Shown here: positions 5,824 to 16,577 of the stretch, in pieces
How the letters are laid out: the number at the start of each line of letters is the position of its first letter
Position numbering within the stretch: position 1 is the first letter of the stretch
Source of the DNA: Lentisphaerota bacterium
GTDB taxonomy: Bacteria > Verrucomicrobiota > Lentisphaeria > Victivallales > Victivallaceae
Direction: 5' to 3'
Length of the DNA stretch: 64,000 nucleotides
NCBI GenBank assembly: GCA_015061815.1
Contig: SUVW01000014.1
Span: 1 to 64,000, forward strand
Notes under the pieces: model-generated
Database searches by the model: none
Seen by the model: only the letters and a program-made list of their open reading frames with translations
What the model was told of the DNA's origin: nothing
Translations under genes and position numbers: made by a program

Positions 5824-6993
5824 ATGACCTTTTTTGAGAACATAAAGCTTGATAAAAATTCTCCGGAACCACTGTTCCTGCAACTGGCAAAAAGTTTAAG
5901 CCATATTATAAAGGAACACTATCCGGATACACCGCACCAGATGCCATCGGTACGGAAATTGTCTGCGGCACTGAAAATCGACCGGTCAACGGTGGACAAA
6001 GCATATTCCGAGCTGAAAAAATCAGGCTTCCTGGAGCAGCACTCTCCCCGGATCATCCACACGGTCAAAATCAAACGAAAGCGTTATCTGGAAGCATTGC
6101 CGGGGATCGGGATCATTCTGCCGGATAAGATGGCAGCACTTGATCACAATGATCTGCAATTTATTATGGAGTACTTCAAAGGCATTTGCGATGCTGCAAC
6201 GGAAAATAACATTGCCCTATCCATGCTTCAACTGCCGGATGCTAACAGCAGGGCAGCGGAAAATGCCAGTTTCATCAAAGAGATAAGCCGTCATTATATC
6301 GGGATAATCCATCTGGGCGACCGGTTGTTCAATCTGGATTCGCCGTTGCACAAATTGATGTGCTGTCAAACCTTGCCGCAGGTGATAATTGCGGCTGAAA
6401 CAGAATACCGCAATATTCTGCAAATACTGCCGGATGAGTCAACAGGCATCAATGAACTGGCAACCGGATGCAGGGAATTGAATTTACAGAAAATTGCTGC
6501 AGTGATGCCGTTTGATGGGATAAAACCATCGCATGTGAATCCTTACTTTTATTACACTGCGTTGAAGCGTGGAGAATTTATACGTGATTTCTTTTTGAAA
6601 GCCGGATTTTCCTGCGATGAAAAACACCATATATTCAACTTCTCCAACTATCAGGAATTACTGAATAATCTCCGGCAGAAGCAAGCAGAAAAACTGCTGC
6701 CGCAACTCTATTTATGTTACAATGACACGGTTGCCTTGTGGCTGCTGCAGGCATGCGGCGAATTGGGAATAAAAGTTCCGCAAGAACTTTCCATTGTCGG
6801 ATTTGACGGCATGGAAAATCCGCAAACTGAAAATCTGGCAACCATAAAACTGCCATTCTACGATATCGGTACAAGAGCTGTGGAAGAATTGGTAAAATCC
6901 TATTCAAACGATACGCCCTTGCAGAAAAAGAAAATTCTGATCAAAACCGATTTTATTACTGGGAAAACCATTGGTCCAAAAAATCAACCTTAA
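5824..6993 (+). CDS. GntR-headed transcriptional regulator with LacI-type sugar-sensing domain
   Basis: This 389-residue protein joins a GntR winged helix (about residues 15-85; recognition region PSVRKLSAALKIDRSTVDKA, then the wing ending SGFLEQ) to a periplasmic-binding-protein-like sensor (about 95-380) of the LacI/GalR type, with the typical LSIVGFDGME near residue 325. Such GntR/LacI hybrids respond to sugars. It starts at ATG 5824 behind a GGGGG site. It is the first gene of a probable operon with the pseudopilin 19 bp downstream and the large carbohydrate enzyme after it, and is the likely local switch for that operon. A palindrome over its own -10 suggests autoregulation. A second regulator of the same architecture heads the opposing cassette at 16577. 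Confidence 0.88.
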   Translation: MTFFENIKLDKNSPEPLFLQLAKSLSHIIKEHYPDTPHQMPSVRKLSAALKIDRSTVDKAYSELKKSGFLEQHSPRIIHTVKIKRKRYLEALPGIGIILPDKMAALDHNDLQFIMEYFKGICDAATENNIALSMLQLPDANSRAAENASFIKEISRHYIGIIHLGDRLFNLDSPLHKLMCCQTLPQVIIAAETEYRNILQILPDESTGINELATGCRELNLQKIAAVMPFDGIKPSHVNPYFYYTALKRGEFIRDFFLKAGFSCDEKHHIFNFSNYQELLNNLRQKQAEKLLPQLYLCYNDTVALWLLQACGELGIKVPQELSIVGFDGMENPQTENLATIKLPFYDIGTRAVEELVKSYSNDTPLQKKKILIKTDFITGKTIGPKNQP

Positions 6994-7012
6994 ATATAAC
7001 CAGGAGGGAAAA

Positions 7013-7857
7013 ATGAAGTTCAATGAAAGAAGTCTTTACGCCTTTACCGGTAAAGGCGTAAAACCGATCGGTTTTACGCCTTTACCGGTAAAGGCGTAAA
7101 ACCGATCGGTTTTACGCTGATCGAATTGCTCGTTGTCATTGCGATAATCGCGATACTTGCGGCGATTTTGCTGCCGGCACTCAACAAAGCACGCCAAAGC
7201 GGTCTGGATGCCTCATGCAAAAGCAATCTAAAGCAGGTAATGGCCTCATCATTGCAATATGTCGATGACAATGACGGGTATCTTTTCTTCTGGGGAGAAG
7301 GCATGCCACGCGCAAATAATTCGAGCAAAAACAGTGAAAATTGGGGTTCTTTATCAAACGGCGGAGCTTATGTAAAATCATATTTCCCTGATCAGAAAAG
7401 CATTCTCTGCCCGGGTGGCCCGCCGACTGACTGGAATGACTCTAATATATATCGTTATGCCTCATACGGACTTTTTCGTGGACATATCGGCAAGCATATG
7501 AAGTTTGATACCCGTGCGCCCCGTGATTTAACTGGTATTTGGAATACAGATAAATTACTTCATTTGCCAACAAATGTTTCTCATTCCAAACTTTATGTTT
7601 TTGCCGACTCCAGACAGAAAACCTGTAGACAAACCTATGTCTGGTATCTCGGATCAAATTCCAGCCAAATGGTTCATCGTCATAACGGCAAAGCCAATAT
7701 TGCCTGGGGAGATGGTCATGTGGAACCCAAAAGTATATTCGAACTTGCAGACTTGATCAAGTCTGTAAAACCAGATATAGATCTTCCGGATTTGTATTAT
7801 TGGCCGTCAGACAGTTATACTACCGCCAACGAGAAAGGTATTTCTCACCTTGATTAA
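7013..7857 (+). CDS. Prepilin-type pseudopilin, frame broken by a 38-bp tandem duplication
   Basis: An AGGAGG site and ATG (7013) open a frame that stops at 7097-7099 after 28 codons. The rest of the gene, from the GFTLIELL codons at 7108 to the TAA at 7857, is intact in the +2 frame. Between them a 38-bp unit is present twice; with one copy removed the start joins the body in frame and gives a type IV prepilin leader ending KPIG before FTLIE, the normal cleavage context. The body has the pseudopilin N-terminal helix, a soluble domain, and an H-x9-DG motif ([12 protein letters not shown]) near the C-terminus, as in Planctomycetes/Lentisphaerae pseudopilins. As it stands, full-length protein requires a frameshift, internal initiation (TTG at 7126) or loss of one repeat. 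It lies between the regulator and the glycoside hydrolase. Confidence 0.8.
7035..7117 (+). repeat. Nested palindromes and 38-bp tandem repeat inside the pseudopilin leader
   Basis: Two perfect 28-nt palindromes centred on ACCGGT (7035-7062 and 7073-7100) alternate with two perfect palindromes centred on CGATCG (cores 7060-7075 and 7098-7113). The repeat period is 38 bp and the segment from 7049 to 7086 is itself one perfect 38-nt palindrome. The last arm (GGTTTTACGC, 7108-7117) is the coding sequence for Gly-Phe-Thr of the prepilin cleavage site. Because 38 is not a multiple of three, the second copy shifts the frame. Confidence 0.9.
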
Positions 7858-7879
7858 CAATTTACAAAGGCTTTGAGCA

Positions 7880-10800
7880 ATGAAACACATCAAAACATTT
7901 TTTCTCTTTTCACTGATTGCCGCACCCGTATTGTCGCATGCAGCAATTGAATACCAAGACTCCCCCAAAGAGTTTACCGTCACGGTCGATGGTCATAAAT
8001 TCGCCATCAATAAGAAAACTGCCCCGTCATGGGGAAGTCAGTATTCTCTGACCATTGACGGCAATAAAAATCTGCGCCTTTCCGCTTATGCCGGAATCGC
8101 GGATGAAATTTTCGGCGGCAAAGGCATCGGCCAATTAGTCCCTTCCAAAACTCCGGCCAAAGTTACCATCTTCAAAGAAGATAAAAATTCACTCACTGTC
8201 CGTGCCGAATATGCCATCGCCCAGGTCGGCAAAAAGGATGCCCCCGATTACGCCGGGGTGAAAATGATCTATTATTACACCTTTACCGATGGTATCCCCG
8301 GTACTGCAGTGAATATCCGGCTTCTGGCGCAGGATAAAGATGTTGTCGTCACCACACTCAATGCCAGTGCCGGCGGGAAATTCACCCATTACACCACCCG
8401 TGACGGTAAGAGAATAGAGTATCCGGAAAAAAGCTGGTCCGGTATTTCCGGCGGCTATGTCACCGCCGAACAGGGGGATATCAAAGTCGCCCTCACCGCC
8501 GGAGCCCGCAATCCCGGAAAAGGATTCGCATGGATCAATGGCAAAAAAATCTCTCTCGGACTTGACCAATTCGCCGAAACCAGAGGTTTTATCGGTCTGG
8601 TAAAGAGTGATAAAGATGTGAAAAAACTCAAAGATTTTTTTGATTCAGTAAAAATCCCGGCCGAAGCAAAAAAAGTCATCCCGGCCGGAACCATCGGTTT
8701 CCGGGAAAGTTCCTCTGAAGCCATCGTCACCGTCGGCGGTCACAATTTCGCCATCAATAAAAAAACTGCTCCATCATGGGGAAGTCAGTATTCTCTGACC
8801 ATTGACGGTAATAAAAATCTGCGCCTCTCATCCTATGCCGGGATCGATGATGAAATATTCCCCCCGAAAGGTGTCGGACAGTTGGTTCCTTCCAAAACTC
8901 CGGCCAAAGTTACCATCATCAGCAGAACTCCCCATTCACTTACTGTCCGCGCCGAATATGCCATCGCCCGGGTCGGCAAAAAGAATCCTCCCGATTACGC
9001 CGGAGTAAAAATGGTCTACTACTATTCGTTTGCTTCCGGACTTCCCGGTGTTGCAGTCAACATCCGGCTTCTGACTGAAAACCGCAATGTGACCGTCCGG
9101 GCATTGAATAGTGCCTGCGGTGCCGGTTTTACCGGCTATACCACCAGCGACGGCACCAAAATCGAGTATCCGGAAAAAAGCTGGAGCAATATAAAAAGCG
9201 ATTATGTCGTCGCGGAACAAGGTGATATAAAAGTTGCCCTCACTTCCAAAACCCGCAATCCCAGCCGGGGTTTCAGCTGGATCGGCCCAGCCAACGATTG
9301 GCGCAAAATAACCCTCAAACCAGGAGAATTTATCGAAAGCCGGGGCTTCATCGGCTTCGTAAAAGATGATGCGGATGTCAATAAATTGAAAGATTTTTTC
9401 AATTCCATCCAAATCCCTGCTGAAAAAACTGAAACTGCCGCCAAAGGCGATATGCTCGCTTCACCGGTCACCGTCGGCAAAGACGGTTGGCCGGTAAAAT
9501 GGCCGGCTCCGATCGTTGTCCGCAAGGGCGCCGGATGGGTACGGCCGGATACCACCGACACCTGGGGCGGTGATGACAACCTCTCCTTCACGGCCAGTGC
9601 CGGATTCGATTCCGGCTTTTTTTATCTCCGCGCAGATGTAAAAGACAGCTTTTTCCGTCAAACCGGAGTGGCTGATAAAATCTGGGCCGGTGACTGTATG
9701 CAGGTCGCATTTGATCCGCTCAATGAAAAAACAGTCAGCAACAACCTGATCCTGCTGGGATTCACCGTCACCGATAAACCATCCATGTGGTGCTGGGATC
9801 ACCCGGATAGAAAATATACCGCCAGCGATATTTCCGCATACTGCAGGGTACGCGGCAACCGGAGCAAAACCGGTTACACTTACGAAGTGGCCATCCCCTG
9901 GGAACTGCTCAAACCTTTCTCGGTCGATCGGGGAAAAATGGGCTTCAACATCGTGATGCTTGATGATGACGGTGTCGGCCCGCGCCATTGGATGGGAATT
10001 ACCGACGGCATCGCCGGAGGTAAAAATCCCGCCCTTTACCGGCCGCTGTACTTTTCCAATCCGGAACAGGTCATGCTCGCCGGAATGAAAGATCCCTCCC
10101 CGCTGCTGCGGATGGATTCAGATACCACCGTCGGCGAAGTGCCGCTTGTTTTTTCGGTTTCCCAAATGCTCCCGGAAAATCTGACCGGCGCAAAGTTGAC
10201 CGTTACCGCCGGGGAAAAAGTTTGGGACGAAAATCTCAAAACCGGATTCAACTCCTTTCAGTATACACTTTCCCCGGCCGAATTGTCCCCCGGAGTGTTG
10301 AATATTTCCGCAACACTGAATAAAGACGGTAAAGAACTTTACCGCGTAAACAAATCCACCAGAGTCGTCACCCGCAAAAGCGTGGAAGAGTTGTGCAAAA
10401 CCGCAGAAGCGGCATCCGGAAAACTTAAAACCGCTATCGCAAAATTGGAAAAAAACGGTAAAAACAGTGCCTACTTCACTAACCGGATCGCATTGACTGA
10501 TTATTTTATCCGCATGGTGCGCCTGGACAACAGCCGGGAAGCTCTTTTCCGCGCACCAGCCACCCGGGTCAAAAAACAGATGACACCCATCACCCCGGAA
10601 TACCGCCGCTGGATCTACCGCCGCAGCTGCCGGAATCTGGATTACTGCATAAAAATACTCAACGATGGTGTTGAGGAAATTGAAAATATCCTCAACGGCA
10701 AAGCTCCCGATATAAAAGTCGATCCCATGCCCATCGGAGCAAAAATGGAAATCAAAAACGGCGGATTCAGTCTCAATGGCAAAGAGATGTTTTTCGTCGG

Positions 10801-12466
10801 CCCCAACACCTGGCAAGTCCACTACACCCAGCTGAAAGATATCGCCGGAGCCGGAATGAATCTCTTTGATATAACCGGTCTTTCCCGCAGTAATACCAAA
10901 TTGCCTATCACACCGAAAGATGAGGAGTATATCCACGAAAAACTTGATAACATCTTCAATCCCAATGTCGCTTTGAAAAGCAAAGAACTCGGTCTGTACT
11001 TTTTCGCCCGTCAATTTGCCGGCTGCAGTTACGTTCAGAATCTTGATACCCCCGACCACTACCGGAAAACTCAAGCCGCCAACAGCGAAATTTGGAAATT
11101 TGAAGCCGGACAACCGCATCTGATCTATCTGATCAGCCATCTGGAATCATTTACCCATGAAAAAAATATGCCGCGCTTTGAAAAAAATATGGCTGCTCAC
11201 CTTGAGAAAAAGTATGGTTCTGTTTCCGAAGTCAATCAGACTTTAGGAACAAACTACAAGAACTTTTCCGACTTCAAAGAGAGCGACCGGAACAATCCGG
11301 CAGTAAAATATGAAATTTTCCTCTTTGAAAAAGAAGCCAACTTCAAATCTCTGAAAGAGAGCAATATGCTTAAACGGGAATTCTGGAAAAAACCCACGAC
11401 CTCCCACATTTCCACCAGTCACTGGACTGCCTGGGATACGCTGCGGAATTGTGCTGACTTTGAAGAACTCTACGCCGAATGTGACATTGCCGGTTATGAT
11501 GCCGGCGTGCGTCTGGAAAGCCGCCGCTATGCCGCCAGCTGGGAAGCAGTGATGATGCTCTGCGACTTCTCCCGTTCACTTTTCCCGGATAAACCGGTGA
11601 CCAACAATGAGTGTCATAACTTCCCCATAAACTGCCCATACGATGTCGATCCGCAATTTGTCTATACTGCCCAAATCTCGGAAATGCTGCACGGCCGGAA
11701 TGCCGGAGTGATGTGGAAGTGGGAAAAAGATTATCACGATCCCTGGGGCAGTTATGCTTTCACCCGGGCCGACAGTTTCCATTATGCCGGACGGGCCGCA
11801 CTCGATGCCCGCAGACTGGCGGCTGAAATTGCCGCATTCCGGAGTGAAAAACGGCAATTCGGCATCTTTTACAGTCTGCCGTCTTTCTGTGATCAGGGAA
11901 TGTACAAAAAGCTCAATGACCTTTATCAAGGCACTTATTTTCACGGTGTCGCGCCCGGATTCATCACCGAAAAAACTTTGCTGGAAGGGAAATTTGATCA
12001 CTATAAAGTGATTTTCATTCCCGATACCCGCCGGGTTTCCGATAAGGTTTTTGCCGCTTTGATGGAACGGGCCGCGCAGGGAGTCAAAATCATCCGCTTC
12101 GGAGAAAAATCTCTGACGATGGATGAGTACGGACATATCAAACCGGAACGTACCAAAATTCTGGCGGGACTGCCGCTTCTCAAAATCGCCGAACCGGAAC
12201 AATATTTCCCGGAAATCGGCAGAATATTCGCAGAAAACAAGATCAAAGGCAAATATGACATCACCGGCAAAGATGGCAAAAAACTCTGGGCTCTTGAATA
12301 CCGGTCAACTGCCGACGGCAAACTGTTCTATGTGATCAATTGGAATAAAAAACCGTTGGATATCGTACTGCCGGATGGTAATTGGCAGGAACTTTTCACA
12401 GAGAAGACCGCCCCGGCGAATATGACTCTCAAGCCGCTGGATATCAAATTATTCCGCCGTAAATAA
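7880..12466 (+). CDS. Very large secreted glycoside hydrolase-like protein with duplicated N-terminal domain and CBM9-like module
   Basis: A 1528-residue exported protein. A signal peptide occupies about residues 1-22 (ends SHAA). Two tandem copies of a roughly 230-residue beta-rich domain follow (about 31-255 and 280-510; both begin VTV-G--FAINKKTAPSWGSQY). Residues about 530-735 resemble a family 9-like carbohydrate-binding module (DDNLSFTASAGFD, then GDCMQVAFDP). A helical linker leads to a C-terminal TIM-barrel-like region (about 957-1528) starting GGFSLNGKEMFFVGPNTWQ, as in beta-galactosidase-like GH42/GH35 relatives, and ending in a flavodoxin-like segment (KVIFIPDTRRVSD...GVKIIRFG) and a small beta domain. 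The exact GH family and nucleophile are not assignable by eye. It is the third gene of cassette 1 and probably acts on extracellular or periplasmic polysaccharide. Confidence 0.82.
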   Translation: MKHIKTFFLFSLIAAPVLSHAAIEYQDSPKEFTVTVDGHKFAINKKTAPSWGSQYSLTIDGNKNLRLSAYAGIADEIFGGKGIGQLVPSKTPAKVTIFKEDKNSLTVRAEYAIAQVGKKDAPDYAGVKMIYYYTFTDGIPGTAVNIRLLAQDKDVVVTTLNASAGGKFTHYTTRDGKRIEYPEKSWSGISGGYVTAEQGDIKVALTAGARNPGKGFAWINGKKISLGLDQFAETRGFIGLVKSDKDVKKLKDFFDSVKIPAEAKKVIPAGTIGFRESSSEAIVTVGGHNFAINKKTAPSWGSQYSLTIDGNKNLRLSSYAGIDDEIFPPKGVGQLVPSKTPAKVTIISRTPHSLTVRAEYAIARVGKKNPPDYAGVKMVYYYSFASGLPGVAVNIRLLTENRNVTVRALNSACGAGFTGYTTSDGTKIEYPEKSWSNIKSDYVVAEQGDIKVALTSKTRNPSRGFSWIGPANDWRKITLKPGEFIESRGFIGFVKDDADVNKLKDFFNSIQIPAEKTETAAKGDMLASPVTVGKDGWPVKWPAPIVVRKGAGWVRPDTTDTWGGDDNLSFTASAGFDSGFFYLRADVKDSFFRQTGVADKIWAGDCMQVAFDPLNEKTVSNNLILLGFTVTDKPSMWCWDHPDRKYTASDISAYCRVRGNRSKTGYTYEVAIPWELLKPFSVDRGKMGFNIVMLDDDGVGPRHWMGITDGIAGGKNPALYRPLYFSNPEQVMLAGMKDPSPLLRMDSDTTVGEVPLVFSVSQMLPENLTGAKLTVTAGEKVWDENLKTGFNSFQYTLSPAELSPGVLNISATLNKDGKELYRVNKSTRVVTRKSVEELCKTAEAASGKLKTAIAKLEKNGKNSAYFTNRIALTDYFIRMVRLDNSREALFRAPATRVKKQMTPITPEYRRWIYRRSCRNLDYCIKILNDGVEEIENILNGKAPDIKVDPMPIGAKMEIKNGGFSLNGKEMFFVGPNTWQVHYTQLKDIAGAGMNLFDITGLSRSNTKLPITPKDEEYIHEKLDNIFNPNVALKSKELGLYFFARQFAGCSYVQNLDTPDHYRKTQAANSEIWKFEAGQPHLIYLISHLESFTHEKNMPRFEKNMAAHLEKKYGSVSEVNQTLGTNYKNFSDFKESDRNNPAVKYEIFLFEKEANFKSLKESNMLKREFWKKPTTSHISTSHWTAWDTLRNCADFEELYAECDIAGYDAGVRLESRRYAASWEAVMMLCDFSRSLFPDKPVTNNECHNFPINCPYDVDPQFVYTAQISEMLHGRNAGVMWKWEKDYHDPWGSYAFTRADSFHYAGRAALDARRLAAEIAAFRSEKRQFGIFYSLPSFCDQGMYKKLNDLYQGTYFHGVAPGFITEKTLLEGKFDHYKVIFIPDTRRVSDKVFAALMERAAQGVKIIRFGEKSLTMDEYGHIKPERTKILAGLPLLKIAEPEQYFPEIGRIFAENKIKGKYDITGKDGKKLWALEYRSTADGKLFYVINWNKKPLDIVLPDGNWQELFTEKTAPANMTLKPLDIKLFRRK

Positions 12467-12476
12467 GAAAAAAAGA

Positions 12477-12518
12477 GGGGGCTGTCGCTTACCTTTTTTG
12501 AGGTTTTGCAACAGCCCC
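12477..12518. terminator. Hairpin between the two convergent cassettes
   Basis: GGGGCTGT (12477-12485) pairs with ACAGCCCC (12511-12518), extended by a GC/GC pair past one mismatch. It lies 10 bp after the stop of the 1528-residue gene and just before the stop of the convergent DUF4838 gene, so it may end both transcripts. The T-tract is imperfect. Confidence 0.55.
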
Positions 12519-12534
12519 ACTTTGTTTTACAGAA

Positions 12535-14775
12535 TCATTTGACCGGAACCATGATCACCCGGTCGATCCACGCATTTTTGATTGCCGGATCATCAGATTG
12601 CGGTATCTGCAGGTCGTAAGAACCTTTGAATTCCGCTTCACCCATCAGATAAACTTCATAACCTTTTCCGGGAGTTTCCGGCAGTTTGACTTTCATCGGT
12701 TTGGCCCGGAGTTTCCAGCGGGTGGATGATTCCCAGACATTTCCGGTCATAAGAACACCTTTGGATTTCCCCTGCACTTCCACTTTGACCGTCAGATAAA
12801 TCCGGTACTTGCCCCGCAATGCATTATCGAATTCAAGACGAGCCAATCTTTTGCCATTGGCAATGATCTGCATTGCTTTACCGCCGGATGCTTCCGGGTC
12901 ATCAACAACAGTGATCCGGCGGTTACGGTTCTGATTGCATATCTTATCCGCCTCCCAGATGATCGTACCGGGAACTTTTTCGATACCTTCGGGAACTTCT
13001 CCGTCATTGTGTCCCCACAGACGGATGAGTTTTTCACGGTAATTATCCAGAGTAAATGTTTTCGGGCCGAAATAGTGAGTTATCCCGTTGGCCTTCAAAA
13101 TTTTCACATCCCGGTCATACAGAGCAGCCGCATCCAGCTCTTTCAATGCTCCATTGCGCAAATCAAAACAATCATGCAGCAGAGTCATATCATAAGGGAT
13201 CACCGCCAGTTCCACCCGGTTCTGAATGATTTTATCGCCGGATTTTTCTGCGGCTTTACGTGCATCCTGCATTTTCTGCCATGCGGCAAGATATTTTTCA
13301 TGGCCATACGCCCGGATAACGGAACTGGCAAAATTGCACACCATCAACCCCTGATTTTCCACCGGAGCTTTGCGGATGATCTGCAATGCTTTCATCATAT
13401 CCGGTGCCGCCGCGCCATAATACGGTACGCAGAAGTCAGCGATGATCTCATCCAGAGATTTTTCCTGATTCCAGAGCAAAGCACTCATAACATAGAATCG
13501 CAGCCGGATAAGATCGGTGGTATAATGTTCCGGATAGGAAAATTCGCAGAAAACAAATTCGGCGTTGCGCTCCGCCATCAGCCGGAGATCCTCATTGACC
13601 GCTTCCCAGTTGGGCTGGGTCAGGAAAGAGAGTTTCTGATTGATGGTATAAAACCATGTATAGATCTTTGCTCCGGTCTTTTGCCATGAAGCGACCTCTT
13701 CAAGCATCCACGAATTGCCTTTGGCGGTAAGCGGTTTGCTGGTATCAAGTTCGATAAAACAGTATAAAATCCCCACATTTTTCCGGGGTTTGACAACTTT
13801 GGGCGGCTTTCTGGCGGCCAGATAAGCCAATGTCACGACTTCAACATCCGGGTACTCCTCTTCCACGCCGGCGGCGACTTCATTGACAAAGTCAAGCAGC
13901 AGATCGGAAATGATCGCATCGCGCTCTTTGAGCCAATTGGTACACTCCGGACATTCACAGAAGCGGTTGTAATCATTCATCGAAACTGAAACTCTTGTTG
14001 CCGCCGGATTCTCTTTGAGCCACTTTTTCACTCCTGCGATAACATGAGCGCGAAGTTTTTTATTGGTCATACAAATTTGACCGTTATGAACCCGTTTGCC
14101 TTTGATCATGGAGTAAAATTCCGGATTTTCTTTCAGACCTTTCGGTGTGGCCGGAACAAATTTCTGAAAGGTGTGGCAACCCATAACATGTTCACTGCCG
14201 CCGAATTCCGCATCAAGGGGCAGCATATGGTTGTATGTACCGTTGAGCCGTCTTCTGGCGAGAAAAATATTTTCCTCATAATTTCTTTTGCGGTGGGAGA
14301 TCACCCTGACCTTGATTTTCGGAGCGTAGCGGAAGTCCGCTGCCGGAAGCTCTTTCAACGCCGGGATATGATTTTCAGTCGGGGTGAGGAAACGCACCCC
14401 GCAAAAACGCTCCAGATACTCATACACGGCATAGAGAGTTCCCCGTGCCTTTCCTCCGGCGAGGTAGAGATCACCTTTCACCGTCTTGATAATAAGTTCA
14501 TCATCAGCGAATTTGGAAAAATCGGCATTCAATGTTTTCGCGGCATCAGCGGTCGCTCCGATGCGGATATATTGGGCTTTGCCGTCAACTTTACTGACGA
14601 TCGGGATCTCTTTGCCCAAGATTTTTCCGGCGAAAAACTGCATCTCTTTGGCGGCGGTCTTTTCCATCGGGTTGGCATCGGGCGCAAGCAGAATTTTGTA
14701 ATCCGCCGCCGGAAGAGTGAATAACGCAGAACTCAACAGAGCCAATAACAATCTTTTACAACTTACCAATTTCAT
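12535..14775 (-). CDS. Exported DUF4838-family protein (putative glycan-active enzyme)
   Basis: A 746-residue exported protein with a hydrophobic signal segment ending near residue 25 (TLPAA). Residues about 25-150 resemble the alpha-glucuronidase/hexosaminidase N-terminal fold (GGKARGTLYAVYEYLE, GVRFLTP), and the central region carries the DUF4838 hallmark SMNDYNRFCECPECTNW near 260. A beta-rich C-terminal domain (about 630-746) may bind carbohydrate. DUF4838 proteins are widespread in polysaccharide-utilising Bacteroidetes and Lentisphaerae; activity is unproven. A GTG nine bases upstream falls inside the GGAGGTG ribosome-binding site, so the ATG at 14775 is preferred. It lies 16 bp after the pseudopilin stop, as third gene of cassette 2. 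Confidence 0.85.
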   Translation of the reverse strand: MKLVSCKRLLLALLSSALFTLPAADYKILLAPDANPMEKTAAKEMQFFAGKILGKEIPIVSKVDGKAQYIRIGATADAAKTLNADFSKFADDELIIKTVKGDLYLAGGKARGTLYAVYEYLERFCGVRFLTPTENHIPALKELPAADFRYAPKIKVRVISHRKRNYEENIFLARRRLNGTYNHMLPLDAEFGGSEHVMGCHTFQKFVPATPKGLKENPEFYSMIKGKRVHNGQICMTNKKLRAHVIAGVKKWLKENPAATRVSVSMNDYNRFCECPECTNWLKERDAIISDLLLDFVNEVAAGVEEEYPDVEVVTLAYLAARKPPKVVKPRKNVGILYCFIELDTSKPLTAKGNSWMLEEVASWQKTGAKIYTWFYTINQKLSFLTQPNWEAVNEDLRLMAERNAEFVFCEFSYPEHYTTDLIRLRFYVMSALLWNQEKSLDEIIADFCVPYYGAAAPDMMKALQIIRKAPVENQGLMVCNFASSVIRAYGHEKYLAAWQKMQDARKAAEKSGDKIIQNRVELAVIPYDMTLLHDCFDLRNGALKELDAAALYDRDVKILKANGITHYFGPKTFTLDNYREKLIRLWGHNDGEVPEGIEKVPGTIIWEADKICNQNRNRRITVVDDPEASGGKAMQIIANGKRLARLEFDNALRGKYRIYLTVKVEVQGKSKGVLMTGNVWESSTRWKLRAKPMKVKLPETPGKGYEVYLMGEAEFKGSYDLQIPQSDDPAIKNAWIDRVIMVPVK

Positions 14776-14791
14776 CAGCTTCACCTCCTGC

Positions 14792-15541
14792 TTATTTTAC
14801 AAATTCGCCGGCTTTTTTCTCATCATCGGTCATATTGGTGAAGGCATCTTTGATCGCCTGAACATCTTTGGTGACCACATGACCGTCAGCACAAGCCGCA
14901 TTGAGCTGCTTACCGTGACGGGTCGAGAAATGATTGACATCTACGATTTTGTGAAAGCCAAATGTTTCATGGCCGGGAGATGGTGCGGTAGAATCACCAA
15001 CCAAAAAAGTCGAAGATGGATTGGCTACTTTTACAGTTTTCCAGGGAGCATAATATTTGCTGCCGGTCACCAGTGTCGTGTTATCTTTGCTGCCTGCCAT
15101 AACGCCCTTGTCCCAACAGCCGCTGCCGGTATAACGGTTATAGTATTCATCCCACTTATCCACATCAGCAGTAGCCTTGTATATCATTGAGGGGCAATGC
15201 ATTACACTTGAGGACGGAATTGATTTAACATTTCCTCCCGACAAAGTAGCTCCTGGCAGATACCCCAGTGTATACAATGTATAAGTCCACACCGTTGTAT
15301 CCGCAAAATTATGCCGCATCGGAACGAAGTAATCATCGAAGGTGTCAGCATAGCTTAAAATAAACATCGCCATCGACTTCTGATTAGAGGTACACTGGAT
15401 CAATTTTCCGCGTTCCCGGGCAGAATTGAGGGCAGGAAGCAGGATCGCCGCCAGTATCGCGATGATAGCGATAACCACGAGAAGTTCAATCAAAGTGAAG
15501 CGTAAACGCTTCACTTCAACCGGTTGAAGTGAATTTTTCAT
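14792..15541 (-). CDS. Prepilin-type pseudopilin with H-x9-DG tail
   Basis: A 249-residue pseudopilin. After a 14-residue leader it has [16 protein letters not shown] and the ALNSARE turn typical of Lentisphaerae/Planctomycetes secretion pseudopilins. Near the C-terminus is HGKQLNAACADG, an H-x9-DG motif. The residue before Phe(+1) is Arg, not the Gly usually required by prepilin peptidase, so processing may be unusual. The leader codons form two overlapping inverted repeats (15493-15533). An AAAGGAG site precedes the ATG. It lies 28 bp after a GntR/LacI-type regulator and 16 bp before the DUF4838 gene, presumably one transcript. The role is inferred to be part of a type II-like export or surface apparatus tied to this glycan locus. 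Confidence 0.88.
   Translation of the reverse strand: MKNSLQPVEVKRLRFTLIELLVVIAIIAILAAILLPALNSARERGKLIQCTSNQKSMAMFILSYADTFDDYFVPMRHNFADTTVWTYTLYTLGYLPGATLSGGNVKSIPSSSVMHCPSMIYKATADVDKWDEYYNRYTGSGCWDKGVMAGSKDNTTLVTGSKYYAPWKTVKVANPSSTFLVGDSTAPSPGHETFGFHKIVDVNHFSTRHGKQLNAACADGHVVTKDVQAIKDAFTNMTDDEKKAGEFVK
15493..15533 (-). repeat. Overlapping palindromes inside the second pseudopilin leader
   Basis: A perfect 24-nt palindrome centred on ACCGGT (15510-15533) overlaps a second inverted repeat with 11-bp arms and a 2-nt centre (15493-15516). The arms are built from TTCACTT, which is also the Phe-Thr codon sequence of the cleavage site, in alternating orientation. The layout matches that in the first pseudopilin (7035-7117), although the sequence differs. 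Confidence 0.88.
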
Positions 15542-15569
15542 TTTGTTTTCTCCTTTTTTTAGGGGTTGT

Positions 15570-16577
15570 TTATTTTTGCATTTTTATTTTCACATTATCT
15601 ACCGGCAGATCGTTGATGATATTCATCACGCCACGCGCGGCAGCTTTGCCAAGTTCCCGGAATTGCCCGGTAAAAAAATCCGGATCAAAAACTTCCGTGA
15701 TATATTCCGGATTATCCCGTTTGAAAACTTCCGCCTCTTTCCAGGGATACAGGAACAATTGCGGTCTGGATTTATTTTTCAACTCCCGCAACACATCATA
15801 CAAAGCACGCAAACCGACCTCACGGGTCATCGCCACAACTCCGGAAAAATCACCGTTTTCAAGCACCTCTTTCAAACCGTCACGGTTCAGATGCTCCTCA
15901 AATACGGTAACTTCAAACTCATCTTCTCCGGCCGCTTCAAAACCATCTCTTATTTCAGAAAGATTGCCGAAAAACAGTATTTTTTTTAACTCTTTCCTGA
16001 TTACCGCTTCCGCTACTTTCCGGCCGAAATCCTGATTATCAAATGATATATAATTCCCCTGCCCGCACGATGCGTAACCTGGTATTTCCAGAATCAATAC
16101 CGGCAGTCCCTCTTCCAGCAACCGGTTCGCCAGCGGATGGACCGCCCCGGCAATAATGCAATCGAATCCGAAATTGCGCAATTCGTGAACAACCATTTCC
16201 TGTGAATCATTGCCCGTACAGAAAAAATTATATGAGCAAAAACAGTTGTTGCGCATCAATTCATCGCCCATAGCTCCCATTATGGAGAGCAACCGGCTGT
16301 CGGTATAATTATTCGTCTGCAATATGGCAATGCTGTGCATAGTCACATCTACCATTGCCGGATTGGTATAGATTCCCTGCCGCCCGGAAATTTTCTGGAT
16401 ATAACGACCTTCCAGCAGATCGCTTATCGCCCGCCGGACAGTCACCCGGCTGACTCCGATGGTTTCCGCCAGAAACATCTCGGTCGGCAGCCGTTCCGGC
16501 TCCGCGCCGCTGTGTACTATTTTCTGCAGCAGATAACGGCGTACTCTTTCAGTTTCTGAAGTATTGGAATTTTTCAT
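15570..16577 (-). CDS. GntR-headed transcriptional regulator with LacI-type sensor domain
   Basis: The 335-residue product has a GntR winged helix (about residues 8-75: LPTEMFLAETIGVSRVTVRRA, then GRYIQKISGRQGIY) and a LacI/GalR-like ligand-binding domain (about 80-335). It has the same architecture as the regulator at 5824 but is shorter and clearly diverged. It heads cassette 2 and is followed closely by the pseudopilin and the DUF4838 gene. A GAGGAAG site lies before the ATG. Its promoter (16635-16607) has a GTATTA/TAATAC inverted repeat over the -10 hexamer, which points to autorepression. The inducer is presumably a sugar released from the glycan degraded by the cassette (inference). Confidence 0.88.
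   Translation of the reverse strand: MKNSNTSETERVRRYLLQKIVHSGAEPERLPTEMFLAETIGVSRVTVRRAISDLLEGRYIQKISGRQGIYTNPAMVDVTMHSIAILQTNNYTDSRLLSIMGAMGDELMRNNCFCSYNFFCTGNDSQEMVVHELRNFGFDCIIAGAVHPLANRLLEEGLPVLILEIPGYASCGQGNYISFDNQDFGRKVAEAVIRKELKKILFFGNLSEIRDGFEAAGEDEFEVTVFEEHLNRDGLKEVLENGDFSGVVAMTREVGLRALYDVLRELKNKSRPQLFLYPWKEAEVFKRDNPEYITEVFDPDFFTGQFRELGKAAARGVMNIINDLPVDNVKIKMQK

Follow-up and report, generated by a model that had tools for sequence, protein, structure and literature searches.

The window analysed here, a stretch of 64,000 nucleotides (nt) from the Lentisphaerota contig SUVW01000014.1, contains two pseudopilin genes (gene 1 and gene 2) whose leaders each carry two successive inverted repeats immediately upstream of, and reaching into, the codons of the FTLIE motif at the pilin cleavage site. 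These inverted repeats are real, occur far above chance and are not peculiar to the two genes of the window. They form a module in which P1 is a 14 nt dyad usually centred 22 nt 5′ of the Phe codon and P2 is a 20 nt dyad of the form GTRAA-N10-TTYAC usually centred 5 nt 5′ of the same codon; an extra copy of TTYAC is frequent on the left side of P1. Our best model, drawn from sequence comparison and held with moderate confidence, is that the module is an inherited, recombining double hairpin, the arms of which may be re-matched by template switching.

Excess and geometry of the leader palindromes

The original prediction placed inverted repeats in both leaders, the first centred on ACCGGT and the second with the Phe-Thr codons in its right arm, and their coordinates were confirmed (Table 1). 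The spacing between the P1 and P2 centres is canonical in gene 2 and is 19 nt instead of 17 nt in gene 1. The leader of gene 1 has no further match in the 21 genomes searched, and a dispersed identical palindrome was rejected on this ground.

The frequency of such repeats was measured in three genomes: that of the window (G000, with 73 matches to the domain PF07963) and two of the same genus (G008 and G012, with 86 matches each). These gave 285 FTLIELL-like rows, of which 282 offered sufficient clean sequence upstream; once leaders of one genome with the same final 30 bases had been merged, 237 distinct leaders remained. An exact inverted repeat with arms of at least 8 nt, covering the Phe-Thr codons and with its left arm at most 45 nt upstream, was present in 91 of the 237 (35/72 in G000, 18/78 in G008 and 38/87 in G012). 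In the same order of genomes, codon-shuffled leaders gave means of 1.0, 0.7 and 1.0 (about 2.8 in sum), and positions deeper within the same genes gave 0.5, 1.9 and 0.5. Leaders swapped between genes gave 15.3, 8.5 and 20.8 (sum of 44.6), a high value because the variants of the Phe-Thr codons and the arm types are common to many genes. The large, position-specific excess that the original prediction had anticipated is therefore present in all three genomes.

A loose inverted-repeat score for P1 gave no separation (174/237 leaders, compared with 148 for upstream controls and 172 for downstream ones), and a scan at fixed geometry was used in its place. In 236 unselected leaders, with at least six of the seven inner pairs required, dyads were centred at −22 in 72 leaders and at −5 in 75, while every other centre from −45 to +7 was occupied in 0–11 leaders. 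An exact parse gave the same positions: a P2 arm of at least 7 nt was found in 93 leaders, with the centre at −5.0 in 80 of these, and a P1 partner was found in 86, with the centre at −22.0 in 67 and a distance of 17 nt from P2 in 68. At least seven of ten pairs were formed at −5 in 38/72 (G000), 21/77 (G008) and 43/87 (G012) leaders, and P1 was also present in 79 of these 102. The two innermost pairs are relaxed (51 and 80 of 102 for P2; 54 and 73 of 82 for P1); they are loop-like in their laxity, yet above random symmetry.

Table 1. Positions of the pseudopilin genes, palindromes and repeat units in the window, and loci with an E-type cassette start
Feature	Coordinates	Strand	Description
Pseudopilin gene 1	7013..7857	+	PF07963 match at 7108-7173; ATG 7013 out of frame with FTLIELL
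38 nt double-palindrome unit of gene 1, copy 1	7035..7072	+	Tandem Repeats Finder (TRF), 100% match, 2.2 copies
38 nt double-palindrome unit of gene 1, copy 2	7073..7110	+	TRF
P1 of gene 1	7073..7100	+	Perfect 28 bp palindrome, arms 7073-7086/7087-7100 (14+14), centre ACCGGT, 24 nt before Phe codon
P2 of gene 1	7094..7117	+	Perfect 24 bp palindrome, arms 7094-7105/7106-7117 (12+12), centre 5 nt before Phe codon 7111-7113; Phe-Thr codons TTTACG 7111-7116 within right arm
Pseudopilin gene 2	14792..15541	-	PF07963
P1 of gene 2	15510..15533	-	Perfect 24 bp palindrome, arms 15510-15521/15522-15533 (12+12), centre ACCGGT, 22 nt before Phe codon
P2 of gene 2	15493..15516	-	11-2-11 inverted repeat, arms 15493-15503/15506-15516, centre 5 nt before Phe codon 15499-15497; TTCACT (15499-15494) within right arm
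E-type start before module			L027, L028, L066, L180, L222, L356, L383, L402

Both window genes matched the N_methyl domain PF07963 in the genome search (28.1 and 23.9 bits); scanned as a protein, gene 2 scored 20.0 bits, just below the cut-off of 21.2, and in the genome search it lies above the cut-off. The product of gene 1 ends at its C-terminus in an H-X9-DG-like motif. Between 5824 and 16577, each pseudopilin gene is flanked by a regulator with a GntR-like domain and by a large secreted protein (one with CBM9_1, the other with DUF4838 and Glyco_hydro_67N).

Sequence freedom and distribution of the module

Within this geometry, the centres of P1 and P2 are of many sequence kinds across genes, and 116 distinct canonical 34 nt cores were collected from 121 contexts (picked for at least 5/7 and at least 8/10 pairs). 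Among 87 pairs of nearest-neighbour cores, 97 stem changes were two-sided with pairing kept, 27 were one-sided and one was two-sided with loss of pairing, whereas controls in which the partner was slid by 1–3 bases left 0–3 double changes still paired. Changes at the central positions of the core were mostly one-sided. Both arms thus change together, and the claim that the elements differ between genes and yet match locally stands. Of 1612 pairs whose outer arms are the same, 10 had mutually reverse-complementary inner hexamers of P2, with 4.4 expected (p of about 0.008, the pairs not being independent); this might reflect spacer inversion, which is a described result of template switching (PMC8604942).

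A comparable pattern is seen between orthologues. Genome G001 carries both window operons at 67–76% DNA identity over the matched stretches. The leaders of gene 2 and its G001 orthologue align without gaps and differ at seven pairs, all of them two-sided and all still paired; one further difference is one-sided and falls at the unpaired centre. The Phe-Thr codons are TTC ACT in gene 2 and TTT ACC in the orthologue, and the arms change accordingly. In the G001 orthologue of gene 1 the double palindrome is a different one, and a cassette of the family A described below is present in addition. Among 18 reciprocal best pairs between G000, G008 and G012, for which module status was assigned by reading, the module was present in both members of four; G008_L231/G012_L159, G008_L211/G012_L157 and G000_L027/G008_L215 differ in its sequence. 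It was present in one member only of G000_L038/G008_L198 (the mature parts of which are 91% identical) and of G008_L111/G012_L167. The leaders of the other pairs are cassettes or lack the module.

Across the class, 197 genomes were scanned for the anchored P2 pattern, and 31 contained it, belonging to five of 85 genera and to two families (f1 and f4); the reversed pattern, used as a control, was found in none of the 197. The anchored pattern was absent from G005, G007 and G010, which are of the same genus as the window genome, despite 108, 38 and 32 PF07963 matches, respectively. The 108 matches in G005 show that the gene family does not need the module. Seventeen module leaders were taken from other genera, one of these genera or more lying in another family, and P1 accompanies P2 in 15 of them; the other two, L395 and L400, are below the threshold. 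In leaders from other bacteria (80 named loci from Verrucomicrobia, Lentisphaerota, Planctomycetota and others), an arm of at least 8 nt was found in one of 92, and the idea that the repeats are a general property of FTLIELL leaders was rejected. The looser pattern GTRAAG-N(3-11)-CTTYAC matches G000 at 42 sites (the reversed control matches at 18); by comparison with the PF07963 matches, 36 of the 42 fall within pseudopilin genes or just upstream and six elsewhere. A single match to the P2 pattern in viral contigs (L426) has no clear P1 and was taken to be due to chance.

Cassettes, secreted-protein genes and tandem units

Many genes carry inserts lying between two copies of FTLIELLV. We counted 46 distinct gaps (36 in G008 and five each in G000 and G012) of 84–342 nt; 45 are multiples of three, and all 46 lack an in-frame stop, one of them including unread bases. 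The cassettes stack up to three (L116). They fall into several sequence families and are possibly a mobile element family aimed at pseudopilin genes. In family A, the 17 rows selected on their final 29 bases coincide over 40 bases, and the Phe-Thr codons that follow vary. By eye, the right-hand FTLIELLV copies of families A, B and C are often cassette-like and the left-hand copies native-looking. Cassettes A–D terminate in hairpins other than P1–P2. Cassettes of type E end in the P1–P2 module, so that the module can belong to a cassette; an E start precedes the module in eight loci (Table 1), and an E-like cassette was recognized by eye in family f4 (L399).

All 13 genomes of the genus contained matches to the DNA of a cassette pair (weak ones in G006, G007 and G009), and none of eight genomes from other families of the order did. 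A phage or plasmid origin of the cassettes was considered and dropped; one cassette pair (412 nt) had no match in either collection. Carriers include L116, L199, L200, L207, L209 and L125 in G008, L028, L031, L032, L042 and L059 in G000, and L106, L141, L143, L162 and L180 in G012. Cassettes of family C (L116:1092-1323 read on the minus strand, L199 and L213) contain an array of differing small hairpins, each followed by GCTTCAY. Cassette-like leaders were also seen in L330 and L340, which are records named Lentisphaerae or Lentisphaeria; that of L330 lies directly after the first LIELL copy, and those of L340 resemble cassettes C and D.

The module also occurs away from the pilin cleavage site. 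In G008 it precedes what by eye is the signal peptide of a large secreted protein bearing carbohydrate-binding CBM_4_9 domains of Pfam (L391/L408), the three closest homologues of which are in G175, G164 and G176 (61, 58 and 49% identical, respectively). The genes in these four genomes (L408–L411) have their own double palindromes, with differing sequences and, in two of them, Leu-Thr codons; no module stands at the start of less closely related homologues, among them L416, L417 and L418. The right arm precedes the real FTLIELL in L418, L028, L039, L089 and L191, where it does not encode the pilin Phe-Thr. The cleavage-site codons as such are therefore not the source of the module, which behaves as a shared unit that usually supplies them.

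The original prediction overlooked an exact 38 nt tandem duplication in the leader of gene 1. Its ATG lies 98 nt from the Phe codon and is out of frame because 38 is not a multiple of three; the only listed start in the FTLIELL frame is TTG 7126. A tandem unit is present in 12 of the 117 module genes of the three genomes, with a length of 34 nt in nine, 35 nt in two and 38 nt in one, none of them a multiple of three. An in-frame ATG is found in 104 of 105 single-copy module genes compared with two of the 12 duplicated ones, and the lone single-copy gene without one, L233, also looks duplicated. The tandem unit may be an on/off switch or a sign of decay; where the palindromes are perfect, as in gene 1, it may also be an effect of assembly. 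A purely artefactual origin was rejected on the basis of L016, L045, L079, L163 and L181, the two copies of which have asymmetric P2 spacers that point the same way, an arrangement not expected from an assembly graph turning back on a palindrome. In gene 1, where both palindromes are perfect, an assembly artefact is possible.

Origin and maintenance of the module

According to our best model, the module would have had one origin or a small number of them, and would then have spread from one pseudopilin gene to another and, in rare cases, to genes for other secreted proteins. Recombination in the shared FTLIELL-coding stretch, into which cassettes insert as well, would provide the route. After arrival the arms would drift and be repeatedly re-matched by replication template switching between them (quasi-palindrome correction), so that every gene would end with its own palindromes fitting its own Phe-Thr codons. 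Slippage between the left and right copies of TTYAC could create or remove whole units, with a shift of frame as the consequence.

Several points weigh against this model. Template switching is deduced from the pattern of sequence changes, and the selection of the 116 cores by pair count lowers the number of visible one-sided changes. The fixed spacing and the retention of the module in four related secreted-protein genes would also fit a selected functional site, and the orthologous pair G000_L012/G012_L082 is identical in its module. Known template switching is not limited to one gene family, and the leaders of other bacteria are without the pattern (1/92). Neither an enzyme nor the route of spread was found, and no search for an enzyme was made.

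The main rival, by analogy with the attC sites of integrons, is a recombination or transposition site read by its DNA shape. A recombinase would use the double hairpin and FTLIELLV to insert and stack cassettes, and selection would keep the dyads. This is possible, though on balance unlikely. The geometry is fixed while the sequence is free, as in attC, for which structure without sequence conservation is described (PMC2727003), and the relaxed innermost pairs look like hairpin loops. The cassettes between FTLIELLV copies, their stacking, the module at the end of some of them and the cassette-like codons shared by the right-hand copies of families A, B and C all fit such a site. However, cassettes A–D end in other hairpins, and homologous recombination among some 80 near-repeats of FTLIELLV could also yield cassette mosaics. 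In 27 of 73 cases the P2 arms match without interruption across the centre, which a hairpin would not need, and no recombinase was found, none having been searched for. In a wider form, which we regard as rather doubtful, shape-recognized and arm-copied double-hairpin sites would end small in-frame cassettes, each genome having dozens of pilin-like genes with FTLIELLV codons between which these cassettes would move, the 34 nt unit would act as a frameshift on/off switch, and the leaders of secreted pseudopilins would be continually reshuffled and switched.

Two readings are improbable. In the first, each gene would have built its palindromes anew from its own Phe-Thr codons, as the original prediction proposed in holding that they were probably generated in place. 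The local matching of the arms and the differing sequences of orthologues agree with this, and template switching is a sound candidate for that part of the proposal. The dyad centres, which are at −22 and −5 in most module genes and recur across genera, argue against a separate origin in each gene. Templating from the cleavage-site codons fares no better, since the module is also found at the ends of related cassettes, in genes in which its right arm does not encode the pilin Phe-Thr and, with Leu-Thr, in two secreted-protein genes.

The second improbable reading is an mRNA switch, in which two mutually exclusive hairpins would regulate the translation or transcription of the pseudopilin operon. 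Alternative pairing is possible (segments 1–2 versus 2–3), and the RNA folds of both window leaders are better than those of 200 shuffles (z of −5.1 and −5.4). Good folding is, however, expected of any palindrome, and the DNA folds of the same leaders also beat the shuffles (z of −3.4 and −4.8). Rfam gave no match in positions 6900–15700 of the window. The third base of the Phe codon is paired in 115 of 116 cores (65 T–A and 50 C–G, the remaining one being G–T) and that of the Thr codon in 99 of 116. TTT stands opposite GTG, which would be a silent G–U pair in mRNA, in only one of the 116; from this near-absence the pairing seems to be maintained at the level of DNA rather than mRNA. G–T and A–C mismatches are about equally common overall (43 and 48), and in the stems alone they are too few to judge (nine and four).

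It is highly improbable that P1 serves as an operator for local regulators of GntR/LacI type that differ from operon to operon: a regulator gene with a GntR-like domain directly precedes both window genes (24.6 bits, below the cut-off of 27, together with Peripla_BP_3 before gene 1; 34.5 bits, above it, before gene 2), but module genes follow many other kinds of gene (76 leaders with sufficient upstream DNA, judged by eye from C-terminal sequence), and P2 and the lock to the Phe codon would be left unexplained.

The double-palindrome module resembles several known systems in part. Repetitive extragenic palindromic (REP) sequences are palindromes of 20–40 bp, present in many extragenic copies of shared sequence and moved by Y1 transposases (REP-associated tyrosine transposases, RAYT). 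The modules are likewise short palindromes in multiple copies; they differ from REP sequences in being intragenic and variable in sequence. Template switching is reported as homogenizing arms and inverting spacers (PMC8604942) and as making compensatory changes at several paired bases in one event (PMC8794818). The modules share the matched arms and the paired changes of quasi-palindrome correction (97 versus 27), but its known events are scattered, whereas here a whole gene family carries two dyads fixed beside one motif. The attC sites of integrons (PMC2727003) keep their structure with little sequence conservation and end small, mobile, stacking cassettes. The modules likewise conserve structure with little conservation of sequence; they do not have the four-box R/L layout of 57–142 nt, their core being 34 nt with two adjacent simple dyads, and they lie inside coding sequence, in most cases away from any visible end of a cassette.

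The Rickettsia palindromic elements (RPEs) and intragenic miniature inverted-repeat transposable elements are small palindromes that occur in frame within genes for proteins (PMC10969869). RPEs are about 150 bp long and form sequence families in unrelated genes, whereas the palindromes here are gene-specific (116 distinct cores in 121 contexts) and nearly always at one motif (36 of the 42 G000 sites in pseudopilin genes). In-frame insertion of the RPE kind is seen in the cassettes (45/46 multiples of three) and not in the tandem units. Perfect inverted repeats are also retained in the coding sequence of mitochondrial genes of Nematomorpha (PMC6649704); these are described there as up to 284 bp long and in conserved parts of the protein, in contrast to the short repeats of fixed geometry in a variable leader. 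No description of such modules was found in open-licence PubMed Central literature, as judged from titles and abstract openings for part of the matches.

Palindromes in coding DNA that combine a fixed geometry with free sequence and almost no wobble pairing are seldom met in nature, and they record either copying between arms at the DNA level or recognition by shape. The 117 module genes of the three genomes provide material for measuring arm re-matching, spacer inversion and unit duplication. Should an enzyme read the shape of the module, it would represent a further system with integron-like logic and, for these bacteria, a route by which the starts of a large family of secreted proteins could be varied or switched.

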